Shown one piece after another: positions 6,458-29,628 of a DNA stretch of 29,644 bases. The translations under genes and the position numbers were made by a program. Position 1 is the first letter of the stretch. Each line of letters opens with the position of its first letter. The stretch covers positions 1 through 29,644 of the IMG/VR virus record IMGVR_UViG_3300030012_003716. One strand, written 5' to 3'. Origin of the DNA: a virus. The notes under the pieces are model-generated. The model did not search any database. It had not been told where the DNA came from and was given only the letters and a program-made list of their open reading frames with translations.

Positions 6458-6997
6458 CTATGCTGCTATTTCTGTATTCCATACATATTCTGAACAATGC
6501 TTCATGCAGATCTCTTTTGCTTGTTCGATTGTGAGAGAGCCGTCTGCAATCAGCTTCTTGATATTTGGATAAATATCTTCCTTACCGTACCAATGTCCAA
6601 GAGGTTTTCTGTATCTGCTGCCTGACAAAGAGAATAAAAAGTCAATGATTCCCTTTGCTTCTTTGTAAGATACTTTATTTCCAAAATAAGTAAGCACGAC
6701 CTTTCTCTCTGGCTTGACAACGAGCTGCATACAAAGATAACCCGGATACTTGATAGACTTTTTCTTCTTTGGCTTTGGCTCTGCACTGAGCATTTGATTA
6801 AGTATCTCTTGATTGTAGATAATAAAGTCTTGGTTCTCAATAGCGTCTGTCATTGCTTCATAAAGTGTATCATACACTCCAGAGACTTCTCCTTTGTATA
6901 CAAGAGAGACTCCTGTCTCTGTTCCGATTGTATGGAAGTCTTCAAGCTCGTCGAAAGCAATAACAGCATCTTGAAATTGTTGTATTGTGTATTTCAT
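6458..6997 (-). CDS. First early-operon gene, unknown function
   Basis: The 179-residue protein begins MKYTIQQFQDAVIAFDEL and contains a Lys-rich linker (KPKKKK, about residues 75-80) followed by an alpha/beta domain ending in NTEIAA. The family is not recognised. The ATG at 6997 directly follows GGAGACTACA, one of the shared leaders, and a TTGTCA-17-TAACAT promoter lies just upstream. The longer frame to 7189 crosses the promoter and is rejected. Being the first gene of the early operon suggests an immediate-early role, but that is only positional inference. Confidence 0.65.
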   Translation of the reverse strand: MKYTIQQFQDAVIAFDELEDFHTIGTETGVSLVYKGEVSGVYDTLYEAMTDAIENQDFIIYNQEILNQMLSAEPKPKKKKSIKYPGYLCMQLVVKPERKVVLTYFGNKVSYKEAKGIIDFLFSLSGSRYRKPLGHWYGKEDIYPNIKKLIADGSLTIEQAKEICMKHCSEYVWNTEIAA

Positions 6998-7037
6998 TGT
7001 AGTCTCCTTTTTATGTCCTTTCTTTGTGGACTCTCTA

Positions 7038-7082: not shown

Positions 7083-7646
7083 ATGAAGAAACCACTCGCC
7101 TTTGTCGACGTAGAGACGACAGGACTCAATCCTGCTACGCATGAAATCATAGAAATATCAATCATCAAAGTCTGTCCTATCCACGGCACAACAAATTACA
7201 CAAGTAAAATCAAGCCCGTATATATCGAACATGCCGAGAACAAAGCACTGGAGATTAACGGCTACAATCCAAAGGACTGGAGACAAGCTCCCGACGCTGA
7301 GATGGTAATGTCAAAAGTCTCTGATATGCTTGCAGGATGTATCCTTGTCGGACACAACATCTCTTTTGACGAGGAGTTCATCTTCGAAACTTGCTTCCGT
7401 CACGGCATCAAGACACGCTATGACAGAAGAATGATTGACACCGTTACTCTTGCGCTTGAGCATCTGCACAATCTGGAGTCTGTCAGCATGGATTCGATCC
7501 GAGAATACTTCGGATGGGTACCCGGGCACAGAGCAAGAATCGATGTCCTTCAGACGTACATGCTATACAAGAAGCTGAACAGAGCAACAGCATGCGATCG
7601 TCTCTTCTGGAGATTGCGCTATATGTTACGCTCTCTCTTTTCCTAA
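7083..7646 (+). CDS. DEDDh 3'-5' exonuclease (DnaQ-like)
   Basis: This 187-residue enzyme belongs to the DnaQ/exonuclease superfamily, which removes nucleotides from 3' ends using two metal ions. Exo I is DVETTGLNP (D9, E11), Exo II is GHNISFDEEF (D96) and Exo III contains HRARIDV (H149, D154), so all DEDDh residues are present. AAAGGAAAAATA precedes the ATG at 7083; the upstream codons of the longer frame lie in the promoter. It is the only early gene on the plus strand and ends 21 bases inside the holin gene coming from the other side. Proofreading, host DNA degradation or end processing are possible roles. Confidence 0.88.
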   Translation: MKKPLAFVDVETTGLNPATHEIIEISIIKVCPIHGTTNYTSKIKPVYIEHAENKALEINGYNPKDWRQAPDAEMVMSKVSDMLAGCILVGHNISFDEEFIFETCFRHGIKTRYDRRMIDTVTLALEHLHNLESVSMDSIREYFGWVPGHRARIDVLQTYMLYKKLNRATACDRLFWRLRYMLRSLFS

Positions 7647-15730: not shown

Positions 15731-16297
15731 TCACTTTTTTGATTGTTTAATTAGTTCGTCTGCTAGCTCTTTCACAAGTCTGTTTCCGGCTTTGCGCATC
15801 GGAGACCACAGAAGCTCATTACTTGTTCTTGTCCCGTATGCGAGATCATTCAGAGTATATTGTCCGGTATGTATGGCCCATGCATAGGGGGCAGTATTGC
15901 GAACAAAAGCAACAATATCAGGACCGTCTATCATGACCCCTCTTTGAAGCTTGTTTTTGGAGTCTTGACTCTTGTCTGATACCTTTGCTTCCGATGCATC
16001 GCCCGGCACAAACTTTCCTCGCTCATGCATGTCTTTTGCGATTGCATACGCCTGCGAGCCGCTCTTTCCTTCTCGTCTGAGTCTGGAGACCTCGGACATC
16101 ATCTTGCTTCTTTCGCTCTTTGGTGGCTCCATGCGTACAGGCCAATTACGATATGCTTCTTGGTATATTTCTTCGACTGCGTCTTGCATCGTCCTTTTGA
16201 TAATCGGATTGGCGTCAAGAAGCTGATTGACAAGTCTCTCCAGCTCGTCCGAGACTCCGACAGCTGCATTCCCATGTTTAAAAAATACTCTGCTCAT
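15731..16297 (-). CDS. HK97 gp10-like tail/neck component
   Basis: The 188-residue protein has an N-terminal helical region (VSDELERLVNQLLDANPII) and a C-terminal segment with NTAPYAWAIHTGQYT and NRLVKELADELIKQSKK. This layout is that of HK97 gp10-like minor tail or neck proteins, with an alpha/beta core and a conserved Y..W.IH.G region. Its usual place is upstream of the tail tube; here it lies between the chaperones and the tape measure gene, which is slightly unusual. AGGAG precedes the ATG, which overlaps the previous stop. Confidence 0.6.
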   Translation of the reverse strand: MSRVFFKHGNAAVGVSDELERLVNQLLDANPIIKRTMQDAVEEIYQEAYRNWPVRMEPPKSERSKMMSEVSRLRREGKSGSQAYAIAKDMHERGKFVPGDASEAKVSDKSQDSKNKLQRGVMIDGPDIVAFVRNTAPYAWAIHTGQYTLNDLAYGTRTSNELLWSPMRKAGNRLVKELADELIKQSKK

Positions 16298-16575
16298 GTC
16301 ATGCGCTCCTTGAGTCGTCTCGCTTGTTGTACATTATACCGCTTTTTTCTTTCGTCTCTGTCTTTTTGTGACTCATGTTCAAGAATATAATCTGCAATCA
16401 AGTCTGTCTGTGTCTGTCTATCTAGGTTTGTAAACCAGCCGGGAGCTTGACCCCAGAAGCGACACAAGCGAAGAGCTAATCTGTCGAGATGTCCTGCTCT
16501 CGAGTAGAGGAAAAATTTGCTCTTTCGTCGACCTCGGATTCTGTCGGAATCTTTGTGCTCATGAAAGAAAGACAT
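16294..16575 (-). CDS. Tail assembly chaperone, second (T-like) frame
   Basis: This frame lies -1 relative to the gene before it and overlaps it by 100 bases. Its C-terminal part (CRFWGQAPGWFTNLDRQTQT and a following acidic/basic helix) resembles the second domain of lambda GT-type tail chaperones. It is probably made mainly as a -1 frameshift fusion through the slippery heptamer at 16512-16518, giving a product of 186 residues. An independent ATG at 16575 with AAGGA upstream also exists, so separate translation is possible. It would recruit the tape measure protein during tail tube assembly. Confidence 0.6.
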   Translation of the reverse strand: MSFFHEHKDSDRIRGRRKSKFFLYSRAGHLDRLALRLCRFWGQAPGWFTNLDRQTQTDLIADYILEHESQKDRDERKKRYNVQQARRLKERMT

Positions 16576-16853
16576 TTGATTCCTTCTTCATATATGACGG
16601 ACGCCGTCACTCCTTGTCCGAGTAGACGATCAAGGCACAGATGACCAAAGTCAGAAGCACGATGCTTGCTCGGGCGATATTTGGGTAATCTAGAAGTGTG
16701 ATCAATGCATACTCCGATCGATCCGGCACAAAGACGAGCGAGCATTGCGTTGTCTGTCTCCGCAGACCATAACGATACAAACTCAAAACATGTTGCCAAA
16801 CTCGGAGAAGAGAGATCGATCTCCCCTCCGAGCTTCTTGATGTTGATTTTCAT
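16476..16853 (-). CDS. Tail assembly chaperone, first (G-like) frame
   Basis: The 125-residue product begins MKINIKKLGGEIDLSSPSLA and lies between the tail tube gene and the tape measure gene, where the G-type tail chaperone is expected. The leader TGGAGACTACA precedes the ATG, one of the shared start leaders. Near its end an A AAT TTT heptamer in the correct phase allows a -1 shift into the overlapping frame. A 0-frame product of 125 residues and a fusion of 186 residues would then both be made. Sequence resemblance to known G proteins cannot be judged by eye. Confidence 0.6.
   Translation of the reverse strand: MKINIKKLGGEIDLSSPSLATCFEFVSLWSAETDNAMLARLCAGSIGVCIDHTSRLPKYRPSKHRASDFGHLCLDRLLGQGVTASVIYEEGIKCLSFMSTKIPTESEVDERANFSSTREQDISTD
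16512..16518 (-). promoter_or_regulatory. Slippery heptamer for -1 frameshift
   Basis: The minus strand reads A AAT TTT in the zero frame of the 125-residue gene, matching X XXY YYZ. A -1 slip here continues as TTC CTC TAC into the overlapping chaperone frame (114 zero-frame plus 72 shifted residues). The overlap and phase match tail chaperone frameshift sites of siphophages. Confidence 0.6.
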
Positions 16854-16872
16854 TGTAGTCTCCAGTTTAATA

Positions 16873-18916: not shown

Positions 18917-19056
18917 TATTGACTCCTTTTCTTGTTGTCTGCTCGGTTCAGATGTTTCACGACCATTCGACGAGCGTCAGTGTGTGAGATGTTGGATTGC
19001 TGTGCTACCTTTTGAGCAATGCGATCGATTGCTGCTCTCTTGCTGCTATCGGACAT
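18916..19056 (-). CDS. Small HTH-like protein (46 aa)
   Basis: A 46-residue frame, starting MSDSSKRAAIDRIAQKVAQQ and ending in ADNKKRSQ, has AAGGAG eight bases before its ATG and overlaps both neighbours (11 bases with the previous gene, one with the next, TAATG). The central part (SNISHTDARRMVVKHL) looks like a short helix-turn-helix or helical hairpin. It is basic and may bind nucleic acid or act in head completion. No family is recognised. Confidence 0.65.
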   Translation of the reverse strand: MSDSSKRAAIDRIAQKVAQQSNISHTDARRMVVKHLNRADNKKRSQ

Positions 19057-19705
19057 TGTATGCTCCTTGTCCGAGATCTTCGGCTCTTTTGATAGCCTTC
19101 TTTGTCAAGCGCAGTTCTTCTTGCTTTGACTTGAGTCTGTTCGCCACTTCTGGAATGTGCTGATCTCTTTCCAGTCTGCTTAGTGCTCTATTCATTCCGA
19201 TAAGCTTCAAGGATGCGATTTGAGGATGCGGAGGATTCAAAATTCCATCTCTCATAAGAGATAGTCTCCACTGATCAAAAGCGTCCTGATCGAAGTGCTC
19301 TATCACTCGTCGTCCGACCTTCTCGAGACGAATCCATTTTGATGTGTGATAGTTACCTTTGTGCGCAGGATACACACGCATGTAATCGTGCTTTGTTGGA
19401 TCAAGCAGTGTCCATCCTTGATCTTGTAAATTTGTGCGCATGATGGAAGAGTCAATTCGTCCTCCAACAGCTCTCGTCCCGTTGACTCCGGGCGTCTCTG
19501 GAATACTGGACAATACCGGAAGAAGCAAAGGGATTTTCTCCTTCTTCTTCTTGCCGTCTGTATTTGTCGTGTACGTGTCGAACACTTTTAGCTCCCAGTT
19601 CTCGGGATTGTGCGCAAATAAAAATCTGCTGTTCGCCTTCTTAGGGATACGAGTCTGTGTCTGCGTTTTCTCTTCCCAAGGCTGTGAAAAATTTGTGTAG
19701 TCCAT
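19046..19705 (-). CDS. Hypothetical protein following the capsid gene
   Basis: The 219-residue protein begins MDYTNFSQPWEEKTQTQTRI and ends with a long basic helix (RLKSKQEELRLTKKAIKRAE). Family unknown; the middle holds DDP-like loops and a DHD-type region (HFDQDAFDQWRLSLMRDG). The ATG at 19705 follows TTGGAGACTACAAAA, the shared start leader. Its ribosome binding site can be hidden by a perfect 12-base antisense element upstream. It probably belongs to head completion or is a minor virion component, made at levels set by the terminator/attenuator between it and the capsid gene. Confidence 0.65.
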   Translation of the reverse strand: MDYTNFSQPWEEKTQTQTRIPKKANSRFLFAHNPENWELKVFDTYTTNTDGKKKKEKIPLLLPVLSSIPETPGVNGTRAVGGRIDSSIMRTNLQDQGWTLLDPTKHDYMRVYPAHKGNYHTSKWIRLEKVGRRVIEHFDQDAFDQWRLSLMRDGILNPPHPQIASLKLIGMNRALSRLERDQHIPEVANRLKSKQEELRLTKKAIKRAEDLGQGAYNVR

Positions 19706-19708
19706 TTT

Positions 19709-19787
19709 TGTAGTCTCCAATAAAAAAGAGTTGGGAGACTCGCAGAGTTTGGAGACTACAGAATTTGAAACCCTGAAGCCTCCCAAC
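19709..19787 (-). terminator. Terminator with anti-RBS in its loop
   Basis: On the minus strand GTTGGGAGGCT (19777-19787) pairs with AGTCTCCCAAC (19730-19740), an 11-bp stem with one G-T pair, followed by TCTTTTTTA. The 36-base loop contains TGTAGTCTCCAA (19749-19760), the exact antisense of TTGGAGACTACA (19709-19720), the ribosome binding region of the next gene. Two structures exclude each other: the terminator, or a 12-bp hairpin that hides the ribosome binding site. Which forms is inferred. A read-through-controlled supply of the downstream protein is the simplest function. Confidence 0.7.
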
Positions 19788-19796
19788 AAAGCGAAT

Positions 19797-20765
19797 CTAT
19801 CGAGCAGAGAGAAGCTTGACGCCTTTGTCTGCATTGATGAGGCCCATTCCAAGGTACGCATGGCCCACGATGAACGTGCTGCTTGACATGGGACGACGGT
19901 CAAATTCTGCAACAATTTTGCCCATAGACATTAGATCGGCAGAACCTCGAACACCGACGGGAATACCGTCTACGTATCCAATACAGCCTGGAGAGATCAT
20001 ATAGTTATCGAATCCAGAAGAACCGTTCTCTTTTACATGCTTACTGCGATATACGTCTACGCCGAACAGGTTTCCAGCGAAGTTTTCGCCTTTGGCTTGC
20101 AACATGTCCATAGAAGACTGCATACGGCTAATTGCATTCCCGGTCTCGTTACGGAGAGAGTCTTGAAGCTCTGTTAGTGCTTTGGGATCAAGTACGGCTG
20201 CGTATGGACCCGGAGCACCTGCACCAGAAGCTGCTTGTTCAAGAGCAAAGATTGCGTCAAAGAAGTCGTCCACGGATAGACTTGTGGTATTTGCTCCTGC
20301 TGTAGTAGTCAAAGAAGCAGCTGCTTCTCCGGTAAGCTCTGCAAAGCGTGTTTCATAGCTTCCTGCAATGCTTTGAGCGAGACGGAAAGGATCGATATCA
20401 GACCCGCCGAATCCGGTCATTGAGGCGAGATCGTCTATCTCATAGATGATGTATTGACGAGCCGCAACAAGAAGTGCGGTTTGTACTGTCAACGCTGTTG
20501 TGTCAGAAGAGTGATCATGATTTTCTGATGTCGCCGCTGCCATCGAATCGAACCCATCAAGCCCGGCAAGACGTACACGGACAGTATCGGATCCTGTGCC
20601 GTTGATACTGCCTTGATAGCTGAGAAGAGGAGTATTTCGAAGGTTTGAAGTGTCTTTTAAAAGAAGGTTAATCTCTTGGGAGATCATTGCTGCGAGTCGT
20701 AAATTTCCAACAAGTCCGCCTGATCCGGATATGTCGTCAAACGTAATCGGTTTTGATGTTGCCAT
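19797..20765 (-). CDS. Major capsid protein
   Basis: The 322-residue protein shows the traits of a major capsid protein: an N-terminal segment, about 35-120 with mixed strands, long spine-helix-like stretches (about 125-195), and a C-terminal beta-rich part ending GMGLINADKGVKLLSAR. It lies in the head module behind portal and scaffold. A very strong ribosome binding site, GGAGGCCACAA, precedes the ATG at 20765, and an extended -10 lies about 90 bases upstream, as expected for the most abundant phage product. A longer frame to 20852 lacks such a site. HK97 fold is expected but cannot be shown by eye. A terminator follows. Confidence 0.8.
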   Translation of the reverse strand: MATSKPITFDDISGSGGLVGNLRLAAMISQEINLLLKDTSNLRNTPLLSYQGSINGTGSDTVRVRLAGLDGFDSMAAATSENHDHSSDTTALTVQTALLVAARQYIIYEIDDLASMTGFGGSDIDPFRLAQSIAGSYETRFAELTGEAAASLTTTAGANTTSLSVDDFFDAIFALEQAASGAGAPGPYAAVLDPKALTELQDSLRNETGNAISRMQSSMDMLQAKGENFAGNLFGVDVYRSKHVKENGSSGFDNYMISPGCIGYVDGIPVGVRGSADLMSMGKIVAEFDRRPMSSSTFIVGHAYLGMGLINADKGVKLLSAR

Positions 20766-20856
20766 TTGTGGCCTCCATTCATTAGGGTTATAGTGTGAGA
20801 GTGCTTCGGGCTTCTCTGCTGTTACCGGAGCGACCGTACCCTGCTGTATCATTCCT

Positions 20857-20865
20857 AGTATAGCA
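20857..20865 (-). promoter_or_regulatory. Extended -10 promoter of the capsid gene
   Basis: The minus strand reads TGCTATACT, with TTGCAT (20878-20883) 15 bases upstream. The predicted start is near 20850, giving an 85-base leader before the capsid start. The same TGnTATAnT form appears at 583-591 and 1259-1267, suggesting a common phage promoter class. Confidence 0.5.
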
Positions 20866-20885
20866 TAAAAAAGGAGTATGCAACA

Positions 20886-21636: not shown

Positions 21637-23367
21637 CTAGTGATAGTACCAGATGATAAGCCCGTCACCGTTTGACAATGCAGAACCGAAAGTCAAACGA
21701 GCAACACCACCAGATCCACCATTTGCAGATACAGAGAATTCATCCTCGTCTGCTGCAGTGTCTCCGAGTGCTGTCATGTTGCGAAGGTTCAAACCGTTTT
21801 TAAACACAAGAACAGAGTTCAGTGCACCAGCTGGAAGAGCTTGAGCAAGATCGATTGTCGTTGTAGAGTTACCGGAGATTTGTGCTCCTTCTTGTTTGAA
21901 GGTGATACCGAGCTTTGCTGCAGTCACAGAAGAGTCTGCAAGTTTTGCGCTGGTCACACCAGAGTCTGCGAGAGCAGTAGTCCCAACGGCACCAGAAGCG
22001 ATCTTTGCAGATGTTACAGCAGCTGAAGCAATCTTTGCAGAAGATACGGCAGAGTCTGCGATCTTTGCAGAAGATACAGCAGCGTCTACGATCTCAGCAG
22101 TATCGACAGCGTTGTCAGCCATCTTTGCATTTGTGACAGCATCGTCTGCAAGCTTGCTTGTGTTGATTGCAGTAGAAGCGATCTTTGCTGTGCTTACAGC
22201 TCCGTCAGCAATCTTTGCAGTAGCAACAGAAGAATCTGCGAGCTTAGCTTCGATGACAGATGCAGAAGCAAGAGCAGCAGAACCGACAGAACCATCGATG
22301 AGCTCAGCAGCTCCGACAGAGTCGTCAGCCATCTTTGCATTTGAGATTGCATTGTCTGCGATCTTTGCGGACAATACAGCAGAGTCAGCCATCTTTGCGG
22401 ATGTTACGGAACCGTCAGCAAGTTTTGCAGTCGATACTCCTCCGTCTGCGATGGAGATGTCGTCGCCCTGCTTCTGTAAACCGCCTGATACAGTGACGGA
22501 GCCTAACCCGGTAAATCTTTGGAACTGAATTGCAGTGCTGCCCAGAGTCGGAGCTGTGTCATTGATACAGACAAAGCCTTGGTTGTCGAATGTGTTGCCT
22601 TCAAGAGCGAACAAGAATGCGCCCGGAAAGTCGGCTCCGGCATCCATATCTGTAGAGCGAGACATTGCACTGTTTGCACCAGCAAAGACATAAACTCCAT
22701 TGTCCTCGGAATCGTTCTGGCCGATACAGAGAATTCTATCCGAATTAGAAAGATTCACTCCGTCGACACTAGCAGGAGCAGAAGACAGATCGATGTTTGA
22801 TCCAGCTACAACACGGACATTCTCTTTAACAGACAATCCAGCAGCAACAGAATCGACATAGCTCTTATTCGCTGCGTCGTTGGAGTTGGTTGGAGTGCTA
22901 ACTTGAATGCCTCCGCTTGTGTAGTCGTAAGTCGCAGTCAAGTCGATTTTGCTTGCGTCAACAGCGTCTGCAGCGATCTTTGCAGATGTTACTGCTGAGT
23001 CGTTGATCTTTGCTGTTTCGACAGAAGAGCTTGCGAGCTTGGCTGCAGATACAGCAGCGTCTGCGAGCTTAGCAGTCTGGACAGATGCCGCTCCGAGCTT
23101 GGCTGCAGATACAGCTCCGTCTGCGAGCTTTGCTGTGAGCACTGCGCCGTCTGCGAGCTTTGCAGATTCTACAGATGCAGATCCGAGCTTTGCAGCTGTG
23201 ACAGCTCCGTCATTGAGAGCTGCAGTCAATACTGCGGATGATCCGAGCTTGCCTGATGTGATTGCTCCGTCTGTAATTTTTGCTGATGTAACAGCATTAC
23301 TTGCGAGTTTGGCGGCAATAATAGCCGAGTCGACTATCTGACCGCCTTTGATTTGTACTGATCCCAT
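21637..23367 (-). CDS. Decapeptide-repeat fibre protein
   Basis: The 576-residue protein consists of two arrays of a strict 10-residue repeat (consensus like AKLADGAVTS). They span about residues 21-140 (12 units) and about 305-486 (18 units), separated by a globular beta domain (about 141-300, including ANKSYVDSVAAGL). It ends in a small C-terminal beta domain (about 487-576). Such repeats build thin trimeric fibres in phages, often head or tail fibres. Its place between scaffold and capsid genes suggests a head fibre, but a side tail fibre is possible. AGGAG precedes the ATG. The first codons start MGSVQIKGGQIVDSAIIAAK. Confidence 0.75.
   Translation of the reverse strand: MGSVQIKGGQIVDSAIIAAKLASNAVTSAKITDGAITSGKLGSSAVLTAALNDGAVTAAKLGSASVESAKLADGAVLTAKLADGAVSAAKLGAASVQTAKLADAAVSAAKLASSSVETAKINDSAVTSAKIAADAVDASKIDLTATYDYTSGGIQVSTPTNSNDAANKSYVDSVAAGLSVKENVRVVAGSNIDLSSAPASVDGVNLSNSDRILCIGQNDSEDNGVYVFAGANSAMSRSTDMDAGADFPGAFLFALEGNTFDNQGFVCINDTAPTLGSTAIQFQRFTGLGSVTVSGGLQKQGDDISIADGGVSTAKLADGSVTSAKMADSAVLSAKIADNAISNAKMADDSVGAAELIDGSVGSAALASASVIEAKLADSSVATAKIADGAVSTAKIASTAINTSKLADDAVTNAKMADNAVDTAEIVDAAVSSAKIADSAVSSAKIASAAVTSAKIASGAVGTTALADSGVTSAKLADSSVTAAKLGITFKQEGAQISGNSTTTIDLAQALPAGALNSVLVFKNGLNLRNMTALGDTAADEDEFSVSANGGSGGVARLTFGSALSNGDGLIIWYYH
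21880..22430. repeat. 30-bp coding repeat array (second protein array)
   Basis: Within the fibre gene the DNA has a 30-base period (for example GATCTTTGCAGA.. and GTCTGC.. elements) matching the ten-residue repeat. The units are diverged, so the array is old and kept at protein level. A second array with the same period lies at about 22950-23310. Confidence 0.7.
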
Positions 23368-23425
23368 GAGAGATACTCCTATATAGGTTTGATGTTAAAC
23401 ACGTGTCTGTAGTCTCCAGAAACTG

Positions 23426-23696: not shown

Positions 23697-24008
23697 CTAG
23701 AGCTCCTCTAATATGACAGATACTTCAGCTGTTCCCGTTTTTGATGCAACAAAGATTGACTCTGGGCGATTCTTTCCTCGTCCAAGTCTGAGAACAACAT
23801 AGTTGGATGATGGGACTGTCATCTTATTCGATGGAATCGCTCCGCCATCTGTCGCGCCATTACGACAGACAAAGATCTCTTTTCCAGTAGAGCCGAGACT
23901 GATTTGTGTCGCCGGAGATGGAAGAAGAATCTCTGTTGTAGTCGAGTCATTCGCCGTGAAATTATGGAAAGCTGGGTACACGTTTAGATTTCGAAGATCT
24001 TCGCTCAT
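23697..24008 (-). CDS. Small beta-rich head-module protein (103 aa)
   Basis: The 103-residue protein begins MSEDLRNLNVYPAFHNFTAN and has a repeating strand pattern with Thr/Ser/Gly turns, as in capsid decoration proteins. CGGAGACAATC precedes the ATG, which overlaps the stop of the scaffold-like gene (ATGA). Position next to scaffold and fibre genes suggests a decoration or virion surface role. No family recognised. Confidence 0.6.
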   Translation of the reverse strand: MSEDLRNLNVYPAFHNFTANDSTTTEILLPSPATQISLGSTGKEIFVCRNGATDGGAIPSNKMTVPSSNYVVLRLGRGKNRPESIFVASKTGTAEVSVILEEL

Positions 24009-24676
24009 GATTGTCTCCGGTTGCGATTCTTCCAAGCTTGCATAACCTTGTCTCGATTCGCTGCATAAAACTCTGGATCTTTCAAAGCACGGTCAAGAAA
24101 GCCCGGACTATCAGGAGCCGGAACCGCTCCGACATTTGCTCGCGGAGCTGCTGCTGTTGGCTGCTCGTATGATTCTTGGTATTCTTGGTATCCTGCATTT
24201 TCATTCGTCTCCGGTAGCTCTTGGACTTGCTCATTATCTTCTCCAATCATCTTCAACGCTTGAAGGTGTGGACGGATTGTAATTGGTGCAGATTCTGGAC
24301 TCTCCACTTGTTGATCAAGCCACTCTGAAAGAGTTTGACGCTCCTTGTCACTCTTGCCTCTTTGCGATCGCTCAAAGGACCATTCTATGGCTTCAACAAG
24401 ATCAGGATCTGTCAGTCCATGTTTTGATATAGATTGATAACGAGAGAATCTTTGCTCTGAACTTTGCAGCTTTGTCTGCATGTCTGCAAGCTGCTGATTC
24501 AGAATGTCTACAGATGACATTGCTTTTTCTGCCTTCTCGAGTCTGCTCTGTGCTTCTTGCAGTGCTTTCTCGGCTGTCGTTGCTCTACTGGCAACCTTCC
24601 CGATTCTCTCTTTGATGATGTTTTCCATCTCGGATTTTAGGACATATACTCGTCCTTCGTTTTCAATCTCTGTCAT
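24005..24676 (-). CDS. Capsid scaffold-like protein
   Basis: The 223-residue acidic protein has an N-terminal coiled coil (about 10-80, with KALQEAQSRLEKAEKAM), a Pro/Glu/Gln-rich middle and a short basic C-terminal helix (DKVMQAWKNRNRRQS). This is the classic arrangement of phage scaffolding proteins, which bind the capsid through a C-terminal positive helix. The shared leader AGGAGACTACA precedes the ATG. It follows the portal gene with a 17-base gap. No separate prohead protease is visible in the head module, so the scaffold may leave intact or be cut by an unrecognised enzyme. Confidence 0.7.
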   Translation of the reverse strand: MTEIENEGRVYVLKSEMENIIKERIGKVASRATTAEKALQEAQSRLEKAEKAMSSVDILNQQLADMQTKLQSSEQRFSRYQSISKHGLTDPDLVEAIEWSFERSQRGKSDKERQTLSEWLDQQVESPESAPITIRPHLQALKMIGEDNEQVQELPETNENAGYQEYQESYEQPTAAAPRANVGAVPAPDSPGFLDRALKDPEFYAANRDKVMQAWKNRNRRQS

Positions 24677-24693
24677 TGTAGTCTCCTATGTTA

Positions 24694-26157
24694 TTAGATT
24701 GCGTATTGTGCTCTTTCAGCTCGGATTCTCTCCAGCTCTTGCTTTGCTTCGATTGGGTCCAGATCTGGATTCATAATCTGCATTGCATCGACTGGTGAGA
24801 TAAGTCCTGCGCTTAATTTTTGGATGATGTCTTCTCGTTGTGCTCGCATCTCTTCCGGGGAGAGTCCAAGCGGAGTATATACGACTCTGTATCCTGTCTC
24901 TGGAAGATTGGCATTCAAAAACCGATTGCAGAGCATCGCACACTTGGAGAGCATCTCTTCGTCTGCTCGGCGGAATACAGGAGCATATCTTCTTTGTGCT
25001 TCTCTTTGTCCGTCTCTGGAGATTGATAGCGCATATCCGCTTCTTGGATCTCCGCTTTGTCTCAGCACTTCGGAAGAGATGCCCGCAGCTGTCGCTACAC
25101 GATACTCGTATTTTGCTATACTCTCGAGAAGTCTCTCTGGATCGGCATATGTAAAAGAACCGATGAGCGGTTGTCCTTGCATGTCTGGATCGGATTGAAA
25201 CATCAAAATTGAGCTTGGATCGGTAGAGATAGCAGATCTTCTTCCTGTCAAGTCTCCCTCGAGCTGAGAGAGTCCTGCAATATGTAGTCCGGCGACATAT
25301 TTTTGCGGCCATGAATTATCCCTCACGCAATGGACATAGAATGAGAAGAGGACTGCTGCTGTCAAAGAACCATAAGCGAGCTGTGACGCATCAAAAGCGT
25401 TAAATAACTGTCCCGTCTTCTCGGCATGATACAAGACGACTGGAAGAAATGGGACGCCTTGTTTGCTTCGATAGGGATAATCGTTTCCGCGCATTGCTTC
25501 GTGCCCCATATACATCTCCGACATATCTTTTCCGATTCCTCCGTCCGGCTTTGCCTCAAACATACCAAACATGGGATTATCAAAATCGCGTATATCCAAA
25601 ATGTCCCAAACCCAAACGGCCTCACCTGTCTCCGCGTGCATTCTCAATCGTAGCTCTTGATAATACAAAGGGATGTCTGGAGCATCTGCTGAAGCTGCGC
25701 AGATGACAAAGTCTGGAGAGATGCAACGAAAAGACAAACCCGGTACGCGTGCAATACCTGCAGGATGATGAGGAGCAACATCGACTCGGACGAACATCTC
25801 ACGGATACCGAGCGTCATCTGTTGGACCTTTTGCATCATCTGGAAGTATCCTGCCTTTGTCACAAAACCATCGCGCCCGACGAGCGCAGAGATGTCTCCG
25901 TCTCCGGTTATGTTCGGCTCTGAATGATACAGCATCGCAAGCTGTCTTGTAACTTGTTCGATTGCACAGCTGCTCAAGTCAGAAGGCCCAAGAGCCTCCC
26001 TTCTGTCTGTTGGCAGATGTCGGAGGAGCTCGTCTTCAAGGTCCTGCTCCCATAGGCCCGTCAAGAGCCGTCTCCGCAGTCCTGAGTGTTGCCAACGTCT
26101 TTCGTCTGTGTCTGTCGGAGCTTGTGGTTTCGGCGGTACGTTGTTCAAATACATCAT
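24694..26157 (-). CDS. Portal protein
   Basis: The 487-residue protein is in the portal position, between TerL and the scaffold. It has a helical N-terminal region (LRRRLLTGLWEQDLEDELLR), a long alpha/beta wing region, and a C-terminal helical portion ending with IMNPDLDPIEAKQELERIRA, a segment typical of phage portals (the M/NPDxDPxEAxxELERI motif). AAAGGTG precedes the tandem ATGs. It would form the dodecameric vertex ring through which terminase pumps DNA. Its start lies two bases from the TerL stop. Confidence 0.85.
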   Translation of the reverse strand: MMYLNNVPPKPQAPTDTDERRWQHSGLRRRLLTGLWEQDLEDELLRHLPTDRREALGPSDLSSCAIEQVTRQLAMLYHSEPNITGDGDISALVGRDGFVTKAGYFQMMQKVQQMTLGIREMFVRVDVAPHHPAGIARVPGLSFRCISPDFVICAASADAPDIPLYYQELRLRMHAETGEAVWVWDILDIRDFDNPMFGMFEAKPDGGIGKDMSEMYMGHEAMRGNDYPYRSKQGVPFLPVVLYHAEKTGQLFNAFDASQLAYGSLTAAVLFSFYVHCVRDNSWPQKYVAGLHIAGLSQLEGDLTGRRSAISTDPSSILMFQSDPDMQGQPLIGSFTYADPERLLESIAKYEYRVATAAGISSEVLRQSGDPRSGYALSISRDGQREAQRRYAPVFRRADEEMLSKCAMLCNRFLNANLPETGYRVVYTPLGLSPEEMRAQREDIIQKLSAGLISPVDAMQIMNPDLDPIEAKQELERIRAERAQYAI

Positions 26158-26158
26158 A

Positions 26159-27580
26159 TTAGTACACCTTTATTTTTTGTGGAATCATTGGTCTGTAATC
26201 GAGGACAGGAAGCAGTCCGTATCTGAGCGCATCGATCGCATGCTGATCGGCATCTCTAGATCTTGCTGACTGGGTTCTCTTCATGGTCCATCTCTGAATT
26301 GATCGAATTGTCTGCGTGCATTCTGGTCTGATCCAGAAGTGCTTTCTTGATTGTATCGCATGCAATATACTAGCACCAAAATAAACGCTATGTCTTCCCT
26401 TTCTTGCTTTGCGTATCGTAAAGGGTAGACCGCGCGGAGGATAGCCGAGGATACTTTCGAAGGCTCTCATTAACATAATGTTACTCATGCGATACTGATC
26501 GCGTCCTCTGTGCTCTCCGTCTCCGGTCCAGATGGCTAGATTTGGATCAACGCCATGCTTTTTCAGCATCTCCAGAATTGCCTGTGCATGATGCTCTGGT
26601 GGAGCTTGTCCCGATGTGTATTCTCCGAGCACAAAGACTCTCGGATTTTGCGCATCTCGCATATCGACACAAGACACGACAGCTACTTGAGAACCTGGAT
26701 TGGAGCCGTGATCAATGCCGACACAGAATCGATAGTCTCCTCCTCTTGGGACTGGTTGCGAGCTGATCATATCTTCAGTGAAGTTCTCGAAGACGACTCC
26801 AATTGGAGCAACATCAAAAGAACCGTTGATTCTGGCTTCTCTGTCGTAGGGAAGATATGCTTCTGTGATCTTGTCGATCTGCTCTTGTGATAGCAGGAAT
26901 CCTTTCGGGAGTCCGATCGGAGTCGTTGCGTCTACTGTCAAAGGAGCACGATGAGCAGAGATCAATCCTCTGTCAATCATCTCTTTGATATATGTTACGT
27001 CTACGCCGCCGACAGGAGTGAGCGAGATTGCGACTGTGCCCCTTTTGCCTCCTGCGCCTCCTCGCGAAGTACGCGCGACAAGCTCGTTAAAAGTCGACTG
27101 ATCGACAGGCTCATCGATGCAGACCAGATTTGCAGTAGCCGAGGCTAGCCCGAGTCCCTGTCCTGCCGTCTTGATTCGAATCAAAGATCCGTTGCGGAAC
27201 TTACAAAGCGGTGCTAATCCACGGAAGCCGCGTCCGCGGATGAACTCACAAGAAGGATCAAGTTCTTCTTTCGGGATCATGTCATAGAGCTTCTGTTGTA
27301 TCGTCCGAGATTGCTCGTGACTGTGGGTGATTAACCAAGCCTCGATTGGTGGTGGGTCTGTCTTGTAATATGGATGTCTACCAAGACAATGATACAGCAG
27401 GAGAGCGCATGTGGCTAGCGTCTTGCCGACTTGGTTGCCGCCTATCAAGGCTTTGATTGGAGCCTTGTCTGCAAGATAATCTCGTTGTGGTGGTGTTGGA
27501 GAGAAGTATCTAAGCGGATCATTCTCTGCTCTTTTTCGCAACCATGCAAGACGTTGTGCCATTCCTCCGAGACTGTTCAT
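26159..27580 (-). CDS. terL: Terminase large subunit
   Basis: This 473-residue ATPase-nuclease packages DNA into the head. Walker A is GGNQVGKT (47-54), Walker B is ANLVCIDEP (150-158) with the catalytic Glu, and the nuclease domain begins with VGIDHGS (287-293) and holds DGEHRG (354-359). The C-terminal segment SRDADQHAIDALRYGL is typical of this enzyme. CTGGAGACGAAA precedes the ATG, which overlaps the stop of the previous gene (ATGA). With TerS and cos-like ends it makes a cos-type packaging module. Confidence 0.93.
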   Translation of the reverse strand: MNSLGGMAQRLAWLRKRAENDPLRYFSPTPPQRDYLADKAPIKALIGGNQVGKTLATCALLLYHCLGRHPYYKTDPPPIEAWLITHSHEQSRTIQQKLYDMIPKEELDPSCEFIRGRGFRGLAPLCKFRNGSLIRIKTAGQGLGLASATANLVCIDEPVDQSTFNELVARTSRGGAGGKRGTVAISLTPVGGVDVTYIKEMIDRGLISAHRAPLTVDATTPIGLPKGFLLSQEQIDKITEAYLPYDREARINGSFDVAPIGVVFENFTEDMISSQPVPRGGDYRFCVGIDHGSNPGSQVAVVSCVDMRDAQNPRVFVLGEYTSGQAPPEHHAQAILEMLKKHGVDPNLAIWTGDGEHRGRDQYRMSNIMLMRAFESILGYPPRGLPFTIRKARKGRHSVYFGASILHAIQSRKHFWIRPECTQTIRSIQRWTMKRTQSARSRDADQHAIDALRYGLLPVLDYRPMIPQKIKVY

Positions 27581-28921: not shown

Positions 28922-29581
28922 TCAGGCCTTCTTGAGTGCAACGACATTGGAGCCGACAAGACTGTGCAGATCAGCTTGCACTCTTTGTCTCAGAATCGGA
29001 GGAAGTGCAATAATCGTATTCACAATCTCAGACATGAGCTGCTCGTCTGTCATTCTCTCATGTGCGTCGACTGCTCCCTCTTCTGCGTCATATGCTTTCA
29101 AGGCTTGCATCATTGTCACGAGTTGTCTCTGGAGTGCCGCGTATGCCTGCCATGAGCCGGAATCCTTTGCTTTTGTCATGGATTGCTTGAGCTCAGAGAT
29201 TTGTATGGTCAACATGGTTCGGTAATCAAGAGAGTCGGCTCTGTTCTGTGTCTCTTCTTCGGCTTCGGGGATTGCATGTTGTGCATCGTTCTTGTATCCA
29301 TGTCTCCGGGAGAGCAACCACATTGCAGACTTGACATCTCCTTCTGTTATGGAATGATTGATCGTCTCTAGTGCTGTCATTGCTGCATGAGCGTCTGCAG
29401 CTCTGACATTTTCTGCGAAGGTCTTGAATAATTTTTGCGCTCTTGGCTGCTCTCCTTTCGCAATCCATTTGTAAATTGTCGACCGCCCGACTCCGGCAAC
29501 GTCTGCCGCAATCTGCATCGTCGCGCCAGCTCTGAGCGCTTTTATGATTTTGTCTTGTGCTGTTTTAAGTTTTTGGCTCAT
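28922..29581 (-). CDS. terS: Terminase small subunit
   Basis: The 219-residue protein has an N-terminal helix-turn-helix (about 20-42, QIAADVAGVGRSTIYKWIAK) for DNA recognition, a helical middle containing SAMWLLSRRHGYK (typical of TerS-like proteins), and a C-terminal oligomerisation-like region (about 120-219). It would bind the cos site, which starts about 50 bases upstream, and load TerL. TTGGAGACTACA directly precedes the ATG, the longest copy of the shared leader and a perfect complement of the capsid-terminator loop. First gene of the late transcript. Confidence 0.82.
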   Translation of the reverse strand: MSQKLKTAQDKIIKALRAGATMQIAADVAGVGRSTIYKWIAKGEQPRAQKLFKTFAENVRAADAHAAMTALETINHSITEGDVKSAMWLLSRRHGYKNDAQHAIPEAEEETQNRADSLDYRTMLTIQISELKQSMTKAKDSGSWQAYAALQRQLVTMMQALKAYDAEEGAVDAHERMTDEQLMSEIVNTIIALPPILRQRVQADLHSLVGSNVVALKKA

Positions 29582-29628
29582 GTAGTCTCCAATATTTTTT
29601 GAAAAAAATCTGCACGTTTCTCTAAAAG

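Follow-up and report, generated by a model that had tools for sequence, protein, structure and literature searches.

Why should the RNA hairpin that follows a phage capsid gene carry in its loop the complement of the ribosome binding sites (RBSs) of several other genes of the same virus? The question arises from the window, the whole stretch of 29,644 nucleotides analyzed here, which is an IMG/VR virus record with most of its genes on the minus strand. This strand holds a terminator-like hairpin between the major capsid protein gene (MCP) and the next gene, and the hairpin bears GUAGUCUCC in its loop. This is the sole antisense copy in the genome of the motif GGAGACUAC, the complement of the loop, which itself is present in six copies, five at RBSs and one at a non-RBS site. 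The explanation that we favor, with a probability of roughly three in four, is that the capsid region yields a 3'UTR-borne, trans-acting antisense RNA, predicted to repress a few of the phage's own assembly genes by covering their leaders from the SD to the AUG.

The MCP (19797..20765, minus strand) is HK97-like by a weak profile match (phrog_267, major head protein; best E value of 2.7e-5 among relatives) and probably starts at 20765, where a conserved MA(T) start and its own RBS (GGAGGCCACA) are found. The gene after it (19046..19705, minus strand) encodes a head-region protein of 219 aa, for which a family search gave no match; an AlphaFold model of this protein was discarded because its quality was too low (pLDDT 59). 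Upstream lie a scaffold-like gene (24005-24676, minus strand; Pfam Phage_scaffold, E value of 6e-4, below the curated cutoff) and the TerS gene (28922-29581, minus strand; phrog_4102, E value of 2.7e-17). The tail-assembly-chaperone-like gene (16476-16853, minus strand) was named from its position before the tape measure gene and its overlap with 16294-16575. TerL (phrog_2), the portal (phrog_104), tail genes including the tape measure, and a tail-fibre-like gene (21637-23367) are also present in the window. The virus looks like an uncultured siphovirus, with a TerL ∼25% identical to those of cultured phages (INPHARED). Comparison with INPHARED gave neither a DNA nor an MCP match, and a search of 84,980 prokaryote genomes (bacterial and archaeal) with the MCP found no relative, so that no host was assigned.

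Read on the minus strand from the MCP stop codon (19797) to the next start codon (19705), the sequence is UAG-AUUCGCUUU-GUUGGGAGGCU-U-CAGGGUUU-CAAAUUCUGUAGUCUCC-AAACUCUG-CG-AGUCUCCCAAC-UCUUUUUU-A-UUGGAGACUACA-AAA-AUG. The hairpin in this MCP 3'UTR comprises 19 bp and is followed by a T-tract (TCTTTTTT, 19722..19729; this and all following parts on the minus strand). Its 5' arm consists of a lower stem, GTTGGGAGGCT (19777..19787), with compensatory changes in relatives, and an upper stem, CAGGGTTT (19768-19775); the corresponding 3' arm segments are AAACTCTG (upper stem, 19743-19750) and AGTCTCCCAAC (lower stem, 19730..19740). The apical loop of this terminator fold (19751-19767) presents the antisense seed TGTAGTCTCCAA (19749..19760), whose core, GTAGTCTCC (19751-19759), occurs once in the window genome, in the loop. 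A 5' flank, AGATTCGC (19791..19798), overlaps the MCP stop codon and is an alternative partner of the 3' arm in an anti-terminator-like fold. Rfam searches of the window and three relatives returned nothing at gathering score; low-E-value matches in the element region (a microRNA family at 28 bits, with a cutoff of 90, and two weak ones) were taken as chance. Membership in the c4 or sar families was likewise not indicated, as there was no Rfam match at gathering score and the predicted targets are assembly genes, not ant mRNA.

The initial annotation had reported that the loop is complementary to the start leaders of TerS (12 nt), the tail chaperone (11 nt), the scaffold (about 10 nt), and the gene at 6997 (10 nt), and to a copy at 23408. 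All of these matches are present on the minus strand. Those of TerS (29581..29592, exact TTGGAGACTACA, 12 nt), the tail-assembly-chaperone-like gene (16854..16865, 11 nt), the scaffold-like gene (24677..24688, 10 nt), and gene 6458-6997 (6998..7009, 10 nt; also found in G004, G011, and G012) lie at RBSs, as described. The sense copy at 23408..23419 (11 nt), however, is found some 50 nt upstream of the tail-fibre-like gene and is not an RBS. Missing from the original list was the nearest perfect match, the RBS TTGGAGACTACA of the gene after the MCP (19709..19720, minus strand, 12 nt), a potential target in cis that is located 28 nt downstream of the loop, right after the terminator. The window contains 14 sites with no more than two mismatches to the loop complement, compared to 2.3 ± 1.7 expected, and none of 100 shuffles reached 14; complementarity to the RBS regions of several mRNAs is above chance and conserved. 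The non-RBS sense copy at 23408-23419 is followed by a palindrome (AAACATGTTT or ACACGTGT), is kept in clade A (see below), and is absent from clades B and C; it is possibly a sponge or a leader target.

Relatives of the MCP (forty-nine) and of the next gene (55) were gathered, and about 80 related contigs formed the comparison sample. In clade A, which includes the window, the arrangement is identical to that of the window wherever a contig spans it. The motif was found in 86 of 101 target leaders (TerS, 9/10; scaffold, 14/24; post-MCP gene, 39/42; chaperone, 24/25), but in none of 306 leaders of 11 control genes, among them the MCP and the major tail protein gene. The notion that the motif is merely a good RBS was rejected on account of this absence from control leaders. 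Across this census the motif recurred at the same orthologs while its flanks varied; among the scaffold leaders, only GGAGAC was common (21/24, versus 14/24 for the full motif). In reverse orientation, GGAGACTAC occurred exactly once in 15 of the 16 clade A records searched whole, which had between 1 and 9 sense copies. In clade A, the loop core GTAGTCTCC hardly changes, whereas variation is seen in the flanks and in the stem, the latter with compensatory pairs (GTTGGGAG/CTCCCAAC, GTCGGGAG/CTCCCGAC, GTCAGGAG/CTCCTGAC, GTTAGGAG/CTCCTAAC, and GTGGGAG/CTCCCAC). Since the MAFFT alignment of the element slips in the arms, a script was used to score covariation segment by segment. Loop and post-MCP leader are mismatched at one position at least in L090/L091 and G006.

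With a profile search, the comparison was extended to MCPs of 50 to 60% identity. Each genome has one antisense seed, placed either in the apical loop of the MCP terminator (clades A to E) or in a terminator-joined hairpin preceding the MCP (clades F and G). Judged by its sequence, the element is an intrinsic terminator in clades A to E (hairpin plus T-tract), and clades F and G have a separate terminator. The seed is complementary to the SD-spacer-AUG leaders of the scaffold, the post-MCP gene, and the chaperone, plus that of TerS in clades A and B; contigs of clades F and G end short of TerS. The loop types of the other clades (GUCGGUUCC, UGUCGUCCUGU, UAUCCUGUUU, UUGUACCUC, UGUGUACCC, and UUUGCCUCG) are each complementary to their own leaders. 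In clade B, the loop is GTCGGTTCC and the leaders of TerS, scaffold, post-MCP gene, and chaperone end in ACCGACATG or close variants, with A[CT][CT]GAC present in 25/31 target leaders versus 0/86 control leaders. Clades C to E each have their own loop with matching chaperone and post-MCP leaders (loop and chaperone leader: TGTCGTCCTGT and AGGACGACATG in clade C, TCGTCGTCCTGT and AGGACGATATG in clade D, and TATCCTGTTTT and AAAACAGGATA in clade E); in clade E, the chaperone leader fits over 11 nt and the cis leader over 8 nt.

In clades F and G, the MCP is followed by a small-loop terminator from which the antisense sequence is absent. Here the complement of the leader motif GAGGTAC is found as a single copy in the 3'UTR of the gene preceding the MCP, in a short hairpin that presents TTGTACCTC and is followed by a strong terminator. 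The seeds of F and G were located by searching for leader complements, a dependence that does not affect clades A to E, whose seeds are simply the hairpin loops. The leaders read GAGGTAC, GGGTACAC, or GAGGCA, and sub-clades with the seeds TTGTGCCTC, TGTGTACCC, or TTTGCCTCG have matching leaders, although certain leaders in clade G pair only via G-U. Compensatory pairs were again seen in the hairpin stem (AAAAAG/CTTTTT, AAAGGG/CCCTTT, and AAAACAA/TTGTTTT). Because this separate seed-plus-terminator element lies upstream of the MCP, it argues for action in trans.

As a separate observation, members of clade B (e.g., L206 and L201) have an extra loop complement (GGAACCGAC, AGAACCGAC, or GGGACCGAC) directly after the T-tract, which covaries with the loop. 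No start codon is present there, and the true RBS lies 15 to 25 nt further on; the extra complement perhaps brings about self-sequestration of read-through RNA.

Independent variation of loop and leaders among relatives, which the initial annotation had regarded as incompatible with its proposal, was not what we observed. Instead, the two change together over about ten loop types, with the same orthologous genes involved, and the 11 control genes do not follow. In a 10 x 10 loop-by-leader comparison, duplex energies of the target leaders averaged -15.0 kcal/mol with matched and -8.3 kcal/mol with swapped loops (p 1e-5, by permuting loop groups that are only partly independent, A/A', C/D, and F1/F2 being closely related; the start codons were set by a script). 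The trans targets alone (TerS, scaffold, and chaperone) gave -15.2 kcal/mol matched versus -8.5 kcal/mol unmatched (p 1e-5). For leaders of the 11 control genes, the values were -8.2 and -7.6 (p 0.03), a slight advantage of the diagonal that is expected from shared SD/anti-SD content. These results indicate that the seed and its putative targets have been rewritten together several times in evolution.

The description of the seed as a loop holds for the terminator fold of the clade A 3'UTR (-27.4 kcal/mol), in which the seed is free, but not for the calculated minimum, a rival fold of -31.1 kcal/mol (z -5.9) that joins the 3' arm to the flank at the MCP stop codon and the seed to the 5' arm. 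The seed is thus exposed in the terminator fold, as it is in most F/G hairpins, and concealed when the clade A RNA adopts the rival fold. The flank covaries with the 3' arm (AGATTCGC/GCGAGTCT, AGACTCG/CGAGTCT, AGATCGC/GCGGTCT, GATCATGAT/GTCATGATC, AGATTGCA/TGCAGTCT, and GATTGATA/TATCAGTC), and their pairing score was 18.3 for own versus 12.8 ± 0.65 for swapped partners (0/2000 in a shuffle that ignores relatedness). The computed probability of the seed being unpaired rose from 0.23 in the free RNA to 0.78 when a ribosome footprint (stop codon plus 11 nt) was masked, and it was 0.76 with the flank shuffled, exceeding the native value in 33/33 cases. Two mutually exclusive conserved folds, one of them a terminator, as is characteristic of an attenuator, were found in clade A only; most members of clade B lack the two-state fold. 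In trp-type translation-coupled attenuators, the position of a ribosome decides between mutually exclusive terminator and anti-terminator folds. The clade A 3'UTR likewise has two exclusive folds and, in these models, looks like a two-state switch gated by a ribosome that sits on the MCP stop codon. The sensor would be the ribosome finishing the capsid gene, and the output would additionally include exposure of the seed.

Taken together, the capsid message very probably controls the output of packaging, scaffold, and tail-assembly helpers. In the mechanism that we propose, the abundant capsid-region transcript would end at the terminator and expose the loop, whether the mRNA stays intact or a 3' fragment is released. 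The exposed loop would then pair with the target leaders and block ribosome entry, so that the output of packaging, scaffold, and chaperone proteins would drop as the capsid message accumulates. In read-through RNA, the seed could also cover the RBS of the post-MCP gene. The regulation of packaging and scaffold genes that had been suggested at the outset agrees with TerS and the scaffold being predicted targets, but most of the predicted targets belong to assembly and not to the early genes also envisaged. Less certain, and limited to the clade of the window, is the contribution of the rival fold, which would hide the seed and dissolve the terminator, while a ribosome finishing the MCP would cover the flank and thereby favor termination and seed exposure. 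It is conceivable, although we would not expect it on balance, that the MCP-completing ribosome forces the terminator fold, stopping downstream transcription and at the same time exposing the loop that shuts off scaffold, TerS, and chaperone in trans, a one-RNA homeostat that would proportion assembly factors to capsid protein.

Much of the evidence near the MCP would also suit attenuation acting in cis only, with the loop pairing solely with the post-MCP RBS in read-through RNA and setting the ratio of MCP to post-MCP product, while the other leaders reuse one favored RBS. The cis match reaches the greatest length (12 nt, at 28-nt spacing), the post-MCP leader carries the motif in 39/42 clade A contigs, and the extra complement after the clade B T-tract has matching changes. 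Reuse of an RBS, however, leaves unexplained why the same 3 to 4 orthologs, and none of the 11 control genes, carry the motif, and why these orthologs all switch with the loop in every clade. Moreover, pairing is as good for the trans targets as for the cis target, the clade E chaperone leader fits better than the cis leader, and in clades F and G the element precedes the MCP and has its own terminator; we therefore consider a purely cis-acting device unlikely. An even smaller chance is given to the hairpin being an ordinary terminator that merely ends MCP transcription, its complementarity a by-product of an RBS duplicated into it. The good hairpin with its T-tract and compensatory stem changes, and the resemblance of the 5' arm to an RBS, are what one would expect of such an origin. 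So would be free variation of the loop, but clade A has an almost constant core GTAGTCTCC alongside variable flanks and stem, loop types covary with trans leaders, and clades with small-loop post-MCP terminators hold the antisense sequence elsewhere.

A protein regulon would likewise show up as a dispersed 9-nt motif in fixed positions, and together with the non-RBS copy at 23409 this could suggest that a phage protein recognizes the leader motif in DNA or RNA (as an operator or the site of a translational repressor), the reverse copy in the hairpin serving as a further site or decoy. Yet the sense copies sit at the SD and the spacer up to the AUG, the single reverse copy lies in a terminator-adjoining RNA loop or seed in all clades, a protein would not require reverse complementarity at the RNA level, and each of about ten site types would demand its own altered protein, which makes this explanation highly improbable. 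The pairing could, finally, be real but of opposite sense, activating or stabilizing the targets, or the leaders could be sponges that control the MCP 3'UTR, e.g., by shifting it to the terminator fold. As seed and 5' arm compete for pairing, a leader-bound seed would free the 5' arm for the terminator, and the noncoding sense copy at 23409 would fit a sponge; the seed, though, covers the SD to the AUG, which is normally repressive, and we see hardly any likelihood in this variant.

The mode of action predicted for the antisense RNA resembles that of c4 and sar RNAs and of bacterial 3'UTR-derived small RNAs (sRNAs). c4 RNA (P1/P7) and sar RNA (P22) are phage-encoded antisense RNAs whose complementary segments lie in loops; they block the ribosome-binding region of an mRNA of the phage (PMC12197685), as the present element is predicted to do. 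These RNAs, in contrast, act on one gene (ant), for lysogeny. In the present family, one leader motif is common to several assembly genes, the putative RNA would be the 3' end of a structural-gene mRNA, and repeated changes in the seed have been accompanied by changes in the leaders. The bacterial sRNAs SdhX (PMC6393394) and MalH (PMC8081044) are also terminator-ended mRNA 3' ends complementary to other mRNAs; their processing and regulation have been demonstrated. The present candidate is viral, and the terminator hairpin itself presents the seed in its apical loop. A phage 3'UTR fragment has been described for PhiKZ, where a noncoding RNA is processed from the 3'UTR of gene 298. This RNA measures about 100 nt, has two stem-loops, of which the second is probably a terminator, and was detected by Northern blotting (PMC8545117). 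The sections of that report considered here give no function or target and do not describe the RNA as following a capsid gene; it is the nearest physical precedent. VpdS (VP882), PreS (lambda), and 24B_1 (Phi24B) are phage-encoded base-pairing sRNAs, as the present candidate would be, but the targets reported for them are for the most part host RNAs or regulators of lysogeny, and no assembly regulon is ascribed to them (PMC12197685). The same 2025 review of phage sRNAs, which covers c4, sar, OOP, VpdS, PreS, 24B_1, and others, does not mention capsid. The initial remark that no phage system of this kind is known is in line with our literature search, which found none, its coverage of subscription papers being sparse and absence no proof.

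Gene order, promoter strength, and RBS strength are the usual explanations for how phages balance assembly factors against capsid protein. In this virus family, one capsid-region RNA appears to govern scaffold, small terminase, and tail chaperone output jointly, which suggests that phage 3'UTRs are able to carry multi-target regulators of morphogenesis. The model is family-wide and directly testable, and it offers a way to find further cases, by looking for a leader motif in a few orthologs together with one antisense copy in a terminator hairpin.

Other loci retrieved by a pattern search for the same loop with a cis RBS belonged mostly to this virus family. Four of them (L094, L099, L115, and L139) were set aside as apparent chance inverted repeats lacking the gene context. 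L115 (696-727) and L139 (2114-2145) are on virus contigs outside the family and show CGTAGTCTCCCCC...GGGGGAGACTAC, a plain terminator-like hairpin repeat. In G002, four small open reading frames of 44 to 86 aa (sense coordinates 25492-26401; L145/L146) are each accompanied by GGAGACTACAATG, and the regulon of this phage may include a cluster of small genes.

Upstream of the MCP, by ∼100 nt, lies a weak promoter-like sequence (20857..20883, minus strand; TTG... TGCTATACT, with an extended -10), and similar hexamers were seen by eye before the MCP in other clades; a consensus scan called 0 sigma-70 sites, the promoter-like sequence before the MCP included. The MCP 5'UTR (20766-20856, minus strand) holds a conserved element, GGTCGCACCsGTAACAGCAG, that has no Rfam family match. 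It was present in nearly all relatives seen and is kept even at about 50% MCP identity (e.g., in L259 at about 7540-7600). The element contains a hairpin, CGGT-CGC-ACCG or GGGT-CGC-ACCC, to which clade F adds an outer stem (GTGGA/TCCAC), and it is possibly a structured leader of the capsid mRNA.
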